A stretch of DNA of 64,000 bases, from positions 1-64,000 of the forward strand of contig LNEJ01000028.1 of NCBI GenBank assembly GCA_001464965.1, given 5' to 3'. Each line of letters starts with the position of its first letter. Positions within the stretch are counted from its first letter, which is position 1. Shown here one piece after another: positions 49,905 through 53,763 of this stretch. The stretch is from Gammaproteobacteria bacterium Ga0074134 (lineage in GTDB: Bacteria; Pseudomonadota; Gammaproteobacteria; Ga0077554; Ga007554). The translations under genes were made by a program, and so were the position numbers. The notes under the pieces were generated by a model. It was not told the DNA's origin. It did not search any database and saw nothing but the letters and a program-made list of their open reading frames with translations.

Positions 49905-50014
49905 GGGGAAGCTCTGAATAATTCCATCCGGAATTCTCAGAGCAAGAAAAGAAAAAATGTGATTTTTTCTTTTCTTCATTGTTCAATCACATGCTGTGAT
50001 CGAACAGGTTCTTA
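49905..50014. repeat. Composite of hairpins: short repeat copy 3, A/T hairpin and TAAGAACCTG end
   Basis: 49905-49946 is copy 3 of the AATTCCATCCGGAATT repeat. It is followed by a perfect 15-bp stem, AAGAAAAGAAAAAAT/ATTTTTTCTTTTCTT (49944-49976, loop GTG), with a T-rich tail usable as a terminator. Then comes GAACAGGTTCTTA, the end sequence of repeat B. The last three bases, read on the minus strand, form the TAA stop of the nitroreductase gene. Confidence 0.7.
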
Positions 50015-50533
50015 GCGGTATTTCACGACCTCATTCAGCTGCCGGCGCGGAGTCGGTTCTGGCGCCTCTGCCGGGTAGCCCACGCTGAGCATGGCTACCG
50101 GTTTCTTGCCTGGCTCGATATTCAATATCCTTTTTACTTCATCTTCATCAAAGGCGCCCACCCAGGTTGAACCCATGCCCGCCGCCACGACGGCGAGCTG
50201 GGTGTAGGCGGCGGCGATGGTGGTGTCCTGGAGGGTGTAGAGCGATTTGCCGCGTTCGCCGTAACGCTGCGCGGAGCGTTCGGGGTCGGCACAGAAAATC
50301 AGGCAGATGGGCGCCTCGGAGAGGAATTCCTGGTTCCCGGCGGCACGGCTTAAAGCGTCGCGCTCTTCCTGGCTGCTGACAACAATTATTTGATAGGCCT
50401 GAAGATCACCGGCGGAGGGTGCGGCGCAGGCCATTTCAAGTACCGCGTGGAGCTTTTCGCGTTCCACCGGCATATCCTTCCGGTATTTGCGTACCGAATG
50501 ACGGTGGCGCACCGTCGCAAAGAAATCCCACAT
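50012..50533 (-). CDS. Nitroreductase-family flavoprotein
   Basis: FMN-dependent oxidoreductase of 173 aa. HRHSVRKYRKDMPV near the N-terminus binds FMN phosphate; APSAGDLQAYQIIVV and the AAAYTQLAVVAAGMGSTWVGAF stretch are family hallmarks. The substrate is unknown. It is the last gene of a minus-strand unit after bamD (15-nt gap). Its stop codon is formed by the end of a repeat, so the ancestral C-terminus may have differed. Confidence 0.88.
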   Translation of the reverse strand: MWDFFATVRHRHSVRKYRKDMPVEREKLHAVLEMACAAPSAGDLQAYQIIVVSSQEERDALSRAAGNQEFLSEAPICLIFCADPERSAQRYGERGKSLYTLQDTTIAAAYTQLAVVAAGMGSTWVGAFDEDEVKRILNIEPGKKPVAMLSVGYPAEAPEPTPRRQLNEVVKYR

Positions 50534-50548
50534 AGACAGATCCTCTCT

Positions 50549-51331
50549 TCAGTTTTTGACGACCAGATTTCTGACCTCGGCCAGATATGGATTTTGCGGA
50601 TAATTCAGCGCCAGCACGCGCAGCGCATCGTTTGATAAATCGTTCATGCCGAGCAGCTTGTAGGCCTTGGCCATCACGCCTAGCGCATTTGGGATGACTG
50701 GGGTGGTGGGGTAATTCTCGATCACGTATTTGGTGCGGTTGGCGGCAGCGAGATATGCCCCACGCCGCATGTAATAGTCCGCAACATGCATTTCATACTG
50801 TGCAAGGTTGTTATACAGATATTGCATGCGTTGGGCGGCGTCCTGCGCGTACTTGCTGCTGGGGTAAAGTTTGATAAGTTGCGAGAAGTACTGGAGCGAT
50901 TCGCGCGCGGCACGCGGGTCACGTTCGGAAGGATCTTGGCCGAAGGTGCGTTCTATCGTTCCTATGCCGCGATTGAAGCCGGATAAGCCCTTGACGTAAT
51001 AGGCGTAGTCCACATTTGGATGGCGCGGATAGAGTTTGATGAAGTGATCGGCGGCGGCGACGGAGGAGTCGGGTTCATCGAATTTATAATACGCGTAGGC
51101 GATTTCCAACTGCGCCTGTTGGGCATAGGGGCCGAAGGGATAGCGGGAGATCAGTGTCTCGAAATCCTTGATGGATTTTTCATAGTTGCCGGCCTTGAGT
51201 TTTTCCTTGGCTCTGTCGTACAAGCGGTTAGCGGGCCAGTCCTTGGTCTCATCGTCTTTTTTCGACAGAGAGGTGCAGGCGCTGAAGCAAAAGGCGAAGA
51301 GTAGAAAGAGTAAAAGGTTACGGGAGCGCAT
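50549..51331 (-). CDS. bamD: Outer-membrane assembly lipoprotein BamD
   Basis: Essential lipoprotein of the BAM complex that inserts beta-barrels into the outer membrane. The 260-aa product has a lipobox ending FSAC (Cys19) and five TPR-like repeats, with family blocks LYDRAKEKLKAGNYEKSIKDFETLISRYPFGPYAQQAQLEIAYAYYK, HPNVDYAYYVKGL and RDPRAARESLQYFSQLIKLYP, and ends shortly after the fifth repeat. It is divergent from rluD, as in E. coli, but a paralogue and a MITE copy stand between them. Confidence 0.96.
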   Translation of the reverse strand: MRSRNLLLFLLFAFCFSACTSLSKKDDETKDWPANRLYDRAKEKLKAGNYEKSIKDFETLISRYPFGPYAQQAQLEIAYAYYKFDEPDSSVAAADHFIKLYPRHPNVDYAYYVKGLSGFNRGIGTIERTFGQDPSERDPRAARESLQYFSQLIKLYPSSKYAQDAAQRMQYLYNNLAQYEMHVADYYMRRGAYLAAANRTKYVIENYPTTPVIPNALGVMAKAYKLLGMNDLSNDALRVLALNYPQNPYLAEVRNLVVKN

Positions 51332-51402: not shown

Positions 51403-52524
51403 CTATCGCGCCTCGCCGGCCTTTTTAATAGACTCATGGATACCCCTGATGCCGCGTACCCATGGTTTTGCAGTATTCATGTTTTTTGGCAGATCCTTTG
51501 CTGCTTCTTTGGCTGCATCCTCTGTGGAGTAGACTCCGTATAGCAGGGAGTACATGCCGTGGCTGCCCCGGAAATAGGATACCTTGTGCAGGAGATTAGG
51601 GTTTTTTTTGATGAAATTTAACAGCGCGGACTCATCTGTCGTGCTCGATAACTGAATGGTGTAATGTGCCGGATTTTGCGCCAGCAGCCAGGTTTCGCGT
51701 TGTATTGTATCGTCACGATCAGGTGTGACGGCTGCCGTGACAGGTTGAGAAGTGGGGGTGGATACGGTAGGGGCTGGCGCGCTTGGTTGTGCCAATACCG
51801 AAGCCTGTGGCGTTTTGTCGCTTTGGGCCGCATTGGCTCGTGTCATGATTGCGAGTGCATCTGCAATGGCGGGTGATTGCTGGTAGTTGTCGAGTATATA
51901 TTTGGCGCGGGCCGCAGCATTGCCGTTGTCCCCTTGTTCCAGAAAGTATTTGGCCATATTCAACTCGTGCTGGGCCATCGTGTTGCGCAGCAGCAGCATG
52001 CGCTGAGCCGCATCCTTGGCAAACCGGCTGGCCGGGAAGCCTTGCAAGAGTTCCGCGAAATATTGAAATGCGAGACGTGCCTGCGCGGAATCCTGTGGTG
52101 TGGCGCTCGCGGGTTTTACGGCTTCGAGAGTGCTGACCCCTTTCTGAAAGGCAACCAGTCCCCGTTCGTAGTAGGCATAGTCTACATGGGGATGAGTGGG
52201 ATTTTTGGCGATAAACTGCTCTGCCATGCCCACCGCTGCATTGGTCTGGCCGCGCTGGTGGATTCCAGTGGCGGCGTCCAACAGCGCTTGCTGGACATGG
52301 TTGGCCAATGGATAACGTACCGTGAGGGTTTCGAGGCGGTCTGCGGCACGCTCATAATCACCCGCCAGGAGCGCCGCCTTGCCATCGTTATACAGTTGCA
52401 CATCGCTCCAGTCTTTGGCGCTGTCACGCTGGGGAGACTGGCTCGTGACTGTCGCGGGGGCGGCGGCGCAGCCGGTGAGGATAAATAATAGTAAAGCGAA
52501 GTAGTGCAGGTTCATCAGACGCAT
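51403..52524 (-). CDS. BamD paralogue fused to a C-terminal SPOR domain
   Basis: Lipoprotein of 373 aa with lipobox LTGC (Cys19). Residues about 36-230 repeat the BamD TPR pattern (LYNDGKAALLAGDYERAADRLETLTVRYPLANHVQQALLDAA, HPHVDYAYYERGLVAFQKGV, ARLAFQYFAELLQGFP, AQHELNMAKYFLEQGD). A Pro/Thr/Ser-rich linker (about 231-275) leads to a SPOR domain (about 286-362: HYTIQLSSTTDESALLNFI...YSLLYGVYSTEDAAKEAAKDLP, preceded by WLLAQNP as in DamX). SPOR domains bind denuded glycan at division sites. The gene lies 71 nt upstream of bamD on the same strand. The first ATG is 2 nt from an AGGA at the repeat edge; the second ATG (52515) has better spacing. Role unknown; a septal partner of the BAM machinery is an inference. 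Confidence 0.88.
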   Translation of the reverse strand: MRLMNLHYFALLLFILTGCAAAPATVTSQSPQRDSAKDWSDVQLYNDGKAALLAGDYERAADRLETLTVRYPLANHVQQALLDAATGIHQRGQTNAAVGMAEQFIAKNPTHPHVDYAYYERGLVAFQKGVSTLEAVKPASATPQDSAQARLAFQYFAELLQGFPASRFAKDAAQRMLLLRNTMAQHELNMAKYFLEQGDNGNAAARAKYILDNYQQSPAIADALAIMTRANAAQSDKTPQASVLAQPSAPAPTVSTPTSQPVTAAVTPDRDDTIQRETWLLAQNPAHYTIQLSSTTDESALLNFIKKNPNLLHKVSYFRGSHGMYSLLYGVYSTEDAAKEAAKDLPKNMNTAKPWVRGIRGIHESIKKAGEAR

Positions 52525-52800: not shown

Positions 52801-53763
52801 ATGTCCAGCACCGAGCATTTATCTTCCAGGATTCCCCATGAAATGGCTGGCATGCGCCTGGATCAGGCGTTGGCCGAGCTGTTTTCAGACTATTCGCGCG
52901 CGCGCCTGCAACAGTGGATACGCGACGGGCAGGTGACGGTCGACGCCCAGCAGTTGCGGGCCAAGGACAAGGTGCTGGGGGGGGAGCGCGTTGATGTGAT
53001 GGCGACGCTGGAGGATGAAGTGTCATCGCAGCCGCAGCGGATTCCTCTGGAGGTGCTCTATGAGGACGAGGCGTTGCTGGTGATCAACAAGCCTGCCGGG
53101 CTGGTGGTCCATCCGGCGGCGGGTAACCCTGATGGCACGATGCTCAATGCGCTGTTGCATCACGCTCCGGAACTGGTCAGCGTGCCGCGCGCGGGGATTG
53201 TGCACCGTCTGGACAAGGAAACCAGCGGCCTGCTGGTGGTGGCGCGTACCCTCAAGGCGCAGACCCATCTGGTGCAGCAGCTTCAGGAGCGTGCTTTCGA
53301 GCGTGAATACGAGGCGGTAGCGGTGGGGGTGATGCTCTCCGGCGGCAGCGTAGACGCCGCAATCGGGCGCCACCCCGTGGACCGCAAGCGCATGGCGGTG
53401 ACCCAGCGCGGCAGGCCGGCGGTGACTCATTACCGTGTCGCGGAGCGTTTCCGCGCCCACACCCATGTCCGGGTGCAACTGGAAACCGGGCGCACCCACC
53501 AGATCCGCGTTCATATGGCGCATATCCGGTATCCGTTGCTTGGCGATCCCGTGTATGGCGGGCGCTTGCGCATCCCGCCGCAGAGCAGCGAACAATTCAC
53601 CGAAGCCCTGCGCAATTTCAGGCGCCAGGCCCTGCACGCCGTGCGTCTGGGGCTGACCCATCCCGAGAGCGGTGAAGCAATGCAGTGGCAGGCGCCGCTG
53701 CCCGCCGACATGGAGTATCTGCTGCATGTTCTGCGAGAAGACAATACCGCTCATGAGCAATGA
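52801..53763 (+). CDS. rluD: 23S rRNA pseudouridine synthase RluD
   Basis: Makes pseudouridines 1911, 1915 and 1917 in helix 69 of 23S rRNA. The 320-aa product has an N-terminal S4 RNA-binding domain (MRLDQALAELFSDYSRARLQQWIRDGQV) and the catalytic motif HRLDKETSGLLVVAR (Asp138). ATG 52801 is the true start; the open frame upstream runs into the MITE. It overlaps pgeF by 11 nt, the usual rluD-pgeF arrangement. Confidence 0.96.
   Translation: MSSTEHLSSRIPHEMAGMRLDQALAELFSDYSRARLQQWIRDGQVTVDAQQLRAKDKVLGGERVDVMATLEDEVSSQPQRIPLEVLYEDEALLVINKPAGLVVHPAAGNPDGTMLNALLHHAPELVSVPRAGIVHRLDKETSGLLVVARTLKAQTHLVQQLQERAFEREYEAVAVGVMLSGGSVDAAIGRHPVDRKRMAVTQRGRPAVTHYRVAERFRAHTHVRVQLETGRTHQIRVHMAHIRYPLLGDPVYGGRLRIPPQSSEQFTEALRNFRRQALHAVRLGLTHPESGEAMQWQAPLPADMEYLLHVLREDNTAHEQ

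Follow-up and report, generated by a model that had tools for sequence, protein, structure and literature searches.

The gene at 51403–52524 on the minus strand of the window (the whole 64,000-nucleotide stretch of DNA that was analysed) encodes a predicted lipoprotein in which a BamD-type TPR domain is followed by a flexible linker and a DamX-type SPOR domain, and it lies next to an ordinary bamD. Comparative analyses place it in a conserved protein family, apparently of single origin, with members in six or more families of Gammaproteobacteria. As the probable explanation we favour a neofunctionalised, septum-tethered TPR adaptor of the outer membrane, which would descend from an old bamD duplicate joined to a SPOR domain and would work beside the BAM complex.

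Anatomy of the fusion gene and its locus

The open reading frame is uninterrupted and begins with ATG, and the N-terminus of its product reads MRLMNLHYFALLLFILTGC-A. Its parts and its neighbours in the window are the following:

51403..52524, minus strand: BamD-SPOR fusion gene, 373 aa; profile and structure-sequence matches, conserved family
52468..52524, minus strand: lipoprotein signal peptide, ending in the lipobox LTG-C19 with Ala at +2
51823..52407, minus strand: BamD/YfiO TPR domain (residues 40–234), four full TPRs and the first helix of a fifth
51697..51822, minus strand: Pro/Ala/Thr/Ser-rich linker (residues 235–276), about 40 residues, read from the sequence
51454..51672, minus strand: DamX-type SPOR domain (residues 285–357), from Pfam and correspondence to DamX residues
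50549..51331, minus strand: true bamD, 260 aa, 71 bp downstream of the fusion (YfiO 8.3e-68; TIGR03302 290.9 bits)
50012..50533, minus strand: gene downstream of bamD which we take to be nitroreductase-like; conserved neighbourhood by synteny
52801..53763, plus strand: presumably an rluD-like gene, oriented divergently to the fusion; it forms a conserved edge of the locus, and its start was placed at the first ATG

The original prediction of a lipidated BamD-type TPR protein with a linker and a DamX-like SPOR domain, encoded upstream of bamD, was borne out; upstream is right in transcription order, with both genes on the minus strand. Both Pfam models scored above their cut-offs, YfiO (PF13525) on residues 40–234 with an E-value of 4.8e-48 (164.1 bits, cut-off 25) and SPOR (PF05036) on the C-terminal residues 285–357 with an E-value of 9.3e-8 (32.7 bits, cut-off 21). 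Among the NCBIfam models, OM_YfiO (TIGR03302) gave 177.8 bits (cut-off 81.4) and a partial DamX match extended across residues 228–364. For the equivalog of E. coli-type BamD (PRK10866, cut-off 363) the fusion scored 116.5 and the true bamD 221.3, both short of it, so that this model does not tell the two apart here; for full-length DamX (PRK10905) the fusion scored 46.9 against a cut-off of 256 bits, over its C-terminal part only, and this cut-off is missed also by the genome's own DamX-like protein. In a sequence search of solved structures, BamD chains matched approximately residues 27–243 and the DamX SPOR domain (2lfv) residues 284–366.

The lipobox Cys aligned with C20 of E. coli BamD in every fusion covering that position, and Asp at +2 was absent from the window's fusion (LTGC-A) and from the relatives in which the lipobox pattern was found. 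Ala at +2 directs lipoproteins to the outer membrane, and the fusion product would be sorted there. An AlphaFold2 model was obtained from an alignment of six sequences, few and close. Its TPR part (helices 41–235, four TPRs and one helix, pLDDT mostly 70–90) matches BamD chains in the PDB with a TM by target of up to 0.83, and also a YbgF/CpoB TPR structure, at rank 33. The linker has a pLDDT <50 across most of its length, and the SPOR part is of low confidence because only few close sequences stood in the alignment.

The order of a divergent rluD, the BamD-SPOR gene and a codirectional bamD was common to all six families. The nitroreductase-like gene then follows bamD in most loci, with glnB, nadE and sucD close by in several, and fusion and bamD overlap in some genomes (G005, G757) but lie up to several hundred bases apart in others. 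An ordinary bamD was present in the hosts whose locus was in view. Four genomes without the fusion have rluD and bamD abutting or overlapping (L083, L084, L085, L086). A scan for promoters and terminators gave nothing scoring above shuffled sequences.

Genes for wall enzymes were not found at the fusion locus, and this missing genomic link counts against the suggestion that the TPR part activates or scaffolds septal wall synthases or hydrolases, in the manner of LpoA, NlpI or CpoB, with the SPOR domain serving for placement. Such a role, which we regard as improbable, would be one concrete form of the adaptor explanation, with no part in OMP assembly. It can draw on the stimulation of PBP1A/1B by DamX and DedD in E. 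coli (PMC7642682), on the resemblance of a YbgF/CpoB TPR structure to the predicted TPR part and on weak matches of some members to CpoB models; any TPR of this class, however, should give matches of the YbgF type. A true CpoB is encoded elsewhere in the genome, so the fusion is no CpoB substitute, and substitution for DamX is ruled out in the same way, by a DamX-like gene.

Distribution and origin of the family

A profile of eight fusions (alignment A1) was run against 369 genomes spread across Gammaproteobacteria. Among the matches listed, down to about E 1e-57, full-length fusions occur in at least six families (f1, f22, f71, f75, f128 and f144), a number to be read as a lower bound. Full-span matches were obtained in 14 of the 20 genomes of f71 and 6 of the 11 of f128, where local profile searches revealed the fusion in two and four more, respectively; in f75 it is present in two of three genomes, the remaining one having a copy without SPOR. 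Within the window's own family, the nearest genomes other than G004 share the gene, and the copies of near relatives are 84–85% identical to that of the window; two near relatives in public databases are known from MAG records, one from groundwater. Outside Gammaproteobacteria, a 398-genome sample of the phylum (E 1e-30), many of whose matching genomes belong to Gammaproteobacteria, gave no full-span fusion match. The class, order and family surveys thus rule out a gene unique to this genome. For the architecture foreseen in the original prediction this means that it is not unique, although no characterised BamD-SPOR protein was found, and the literature searched (subscription papers mostly outside it) holds no description of one or of such a BamD paralog. 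A survey of BAM lipoproteins reports a duplication of BamC and does not contain the term SPOR in its text (PMC3359395); in a 2026 review of BAM (PMC13067283) the sole match to "spor" is a reference title on sporulation.

Several variant arrangements were also observed. In G342, BamD-SPOR and bamD have a 489-aa neighbour (L077:2225-3694) whose BamD-like part is shortened, which carries two SPOR domains and in which no lipobox was seen, and a two-SPOR copy resembling it is present at L142:46-1380. Family f71 has additional SPOR-less BamD-like proteins (L078:2554-3795, L119:2704-3999, L121:1404-2684, L124:7-1179 and L132:701-1945); in those of L078 and L119, the two that were scanned, the C-terminal ~170–190 residues have no Pfam assignment. 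In G150, a BamD-like fragment (L076:5069-5614), possibly a broken third copy, lies directly upstream of BamD-SPOR. G004 (f1, 97% complete) matched neither BamD-SPOR nor BamD. bamD is essential elsewhere, and the locus is therefore probably absent from the G004 assembly, as a gap.

The ancestry of the copy was analysed in a maximum-likelihood tree of TPR domains with non-gammaproteobacterial BamDs as the outgroup. Among its members were 26 fusions, chosen so as to omit some long or partial rows, together with 3 SPOR-less neighbours. Fusions and neighbours alike formed one clade (99/98) nested among the gammaproteobacterial BamDs, every host's own bamD was placed outside it, and the product of 50549–51331 grouped with the other BamDs; in an earlier, unrooted set the split between fusions and BamDs was supported at 100/99. 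A single clade apart from each host's bamD is indicative of one old tandem duplication, and a recent duplication in this lineage is ruled out, as the copies group together and not with the host bamD. It speaks against the adaptor explanation that fast-evolving paralogs could be grouped artificially in such a tree; the rooted analysis was free of long-branch warnings. The simplest history would be one old tandem duplication and a SPOR gain, with SPOR later lost in some copies, and the scattered presence of the gene would then mean many gene losses, or some transfer. Repeated acquisition of SPOR from each host's DamX was considered as well; a single SPOR clade was not rejected (AU p 0.45), the domain being too short to decide between one gain and several.

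Both domains of the fusion are under purifying selection. In comparisons with three close relatives, dN/dS was 0.16–0.18 for the TPR part, 0.20–0.37 for SPOR and 0.29–0.58 for the linker, where purifying selection is the weakest of the protein, and 0.10–0.11 for bamD. The fusion hence evolves faster than bamD and one lineage has the apparent fragment at L076:5069-5614, as might be expected of an annotation or assembly artefact or of a decaying duplicate. Yet the frame is intact in many independent genomes, selection acts on both domains and the SPOR site is conserved residue by residue, which makes such an explanation hardly credible.

Residues kept and lost in the two domains

Residues were counted after clustering at 80% (88 BamDs, 30 fusions) and numbered as in E. 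coli BamD, the sequence of which is identical to PDB chain 5d0o_D. The scaffold positions P63, Y107, Y110 and P155 are kept in 97–100% of the fusions. Conservation falls from BamDs to fusions at G65 (86 to 0%), R135 (91 to 0%), Y185 (100 to 10%), R188 (88 to 10%), A190 (95 to 0%), A193 (93 to 10%), N196 (82 to 0%), L98 (79 to 7%), R97 (K/R, 93 to 30%) and R197 (100 to 47%). N241 is lost too, the lost columns being mostly near-invariant in BamD, and the end of TPR5 (E. coli 230–243) is mostly gaps, leaving four TPRs and one helix instead of five TPRs. Y185 and R197 are found in 100% of eight BamDs from outside the class, and their invariance there and among the other BamDs marks BamD function broadly. 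In E. coli, BamD holds BamA by Y184/Y185, R94/R97 and the salt bridge of R197 (PMC11592675; PMC6529637), the partner of which is BamA E373 (PMC11592675), and Y62 and R197 are important for the handling of substrates (PMC10945584).

The prediction that the fusion would place a BAM-type scaffold at the septum did not hold up as stated, since Y185, R97 and L98 are largely lost in the family, as is about half of R197, and the last TPR helix is gone. At the contact sites the window protein has Y at 184, F at 185, A at 97 and R at 197, and within its own family R197 is kept and position 185 is F, Y, Y or S. As judged from these residues, its loss of the BamA-contact signature is milder than the family average, and residual BamA binding would be possible there; the scaffold claim is thus weakened family-wide and less so in the window's R197-keeping family.

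The same losses bear on whether the protein could be an alternative BamD, replacing BamD in a subset of septal BAM complexes. Its score is far above the NCBIfam cut-off of the BamD subfamily and its predicted TPR fold is BamD-like, but with Y185, R97, L98, N241 and the TPR5 end lost, and a normal bamD kept by the hosts whose locus was in view, this is very unlikely; any second functional BamD is disfavoured by the loss of BamA-contact residues.

A septum-targeted BAM accessory, which would bind BamD, BamC/E or BamA anew and draw BAM to denuded septal glycan, thereby linking OMP insertion to constriction as in the original prediction, seems to us possible but rather unlikely. It would agree with direct descent from bamD, a position next to that gene, lipidation, an intact SPOR domain and the retention in the window's family of R197, the salt-bridge partner of BamA E373. 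Division sites are the preferred places of OMP insertion in E. coli, with wall maturation exerting control (PMC9242858), and BAM is concentrated at midcell (PMC8620860); together these findings keep a BAM-linked role alive as a minority reading. However, BamA-contact residues are largely lost across the family, and the midcell enrichment in E. coli requires neither active septation nor late division proteins (PMC8620860), so that no SPOR-type recruiter is needed in that organism. That a BamD-derived subunit anchors OMP insertion, or some other step of outer-membrane assembly, to amidase-denuded septal glycan is graded by us as a tentative proposal with a limited chance of being right.

Most of the family lacks the BamA-contact signature, and for this reason the fusion most likely works beside BAM, as the adaptor explanation has it, and the residue losses suggest a partner other than BamA bound by the BamD route. 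Against this explanation, a partner newly shared by the family has left no positive sign on the TPR surface, where the only position newly conserved across the family is Leu at E. coli 186.

In the SPOR domain, Q291, S294, W355 and R357 of the fusion correspond to Q351, S354, W416 and K418 of DamX. Across the family the Q351 equivalent is present in 30/30 and the W416 equivalent in 29/29, and the K418 equivalent is R in 27/29. SPOR domains bind septal glycan denuded by amidases. Residues of the Q351/W416/K418 type matter for the septal localisation of DamX, and in the SPOR domain of RlpA a Gln and a basic patch contact the glycan (PMC6895207). With the anatomy intact and the glycan-binding residues kept, both the anatomy and the predicted septal targeting are well supported, and the fusion would be expected to localise to the septum. 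Counting against the favoured explanation, SPOR is not always kept, as one lineage and one genome of f75 have sister copies without it.

Six SPOR proteins are encoded in the genome, and the fusion as query finds only the DamX-like one on G000:C35. The N-terminal part of this protein (G000:C35:19267-20598, L039) gives a sub-threshold match to a PEP-CTERM-associated ATPase model, and its gene is preceded by an exopolyphosphatase-like gene, which we take by eye to be Ppx/GppA. In G006 (f1), no DamX-type SPOR protein was found besides BamD-SPOR; loss of DamX or incompleteness of the genome is possible.

Proposed role, related proteins and meaning

In the adaptor explanation, an old tandem bamD duplicate would have diverged after being joined, within Gammaproteobacteria, to a DamX-type SPOR domain. 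Lipidated at Cys19, the protein would be held at the periplasmic side of the outer membrane, from where the flexible linker would let the SPOR domain reach glycan that amidases have cleared of peptides where the septum constricts. The fusion would thereby bridge outer membrane and septal wall and make its TPR surface available to a partner at that site, and would act beside the BAM complex and not as the BamD within it.

The protein is similar to BamD (YfiO) in its lipidation, YfiO/TPR_18 domain, predicted fold, locus and common descent. It differs in lacking the BamA-contact signature and the TPR5 end, in its additional linker and SPOR domain, and in standing beside bamD, not in place of it. 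With DamX it shares a C-terminal SPOR domain of the same type, with a WLL-Q-P-YTLQ lead-in and equivalents of Q351, W416 and K418, whereas the genome's DamX-like protein, from a separate, coexisting gene, has an N-terminal ATPase-like region, no lipobox and no TPR. CpoB (YbgF) is a periplasmic TPR protein of the Tol-Pal system tied to outer-membrane constriction; the similarity to it lies in the TPR, with weak profile and fold matches, but CpoB is not a lipoprotein with SPOR. RlpA resembles the fusion in its lipid anchor and C-terminal SPOR domain, a predicted bridge from outer membrane to septal glycan (PMC6895207), yet it has a lytic transglycosylase domain where the fusion has TPRs and no enzyme.

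All BamD-SPOR proteins tested score 165–188 bits with TIGR03302 (cut-off 81.4), so automatic annotation probably names the family BamD. Surveys of BamD copies could be misled by this, and BamD counts in databases probably include the BamD-SPOR paralog. As a natural paralog without the BamA-BamD contact signature, it may be useful for work on that contact. The fusion also carries a built-in test, as point mutants of the SPOR domain should delocalise the protein. To our knowledge, no component that couples wall splitting directly to outer-membrane growth is known from model enterobacteria; if the septal-anchor reading is true, BamD-SPOR would be one. In this family, a lipoprotein of BAM ancestry is naturally fused to a reader of the septal wall, which bears on how the growth of the outer membrane is timed with the splitting of the septal wall.
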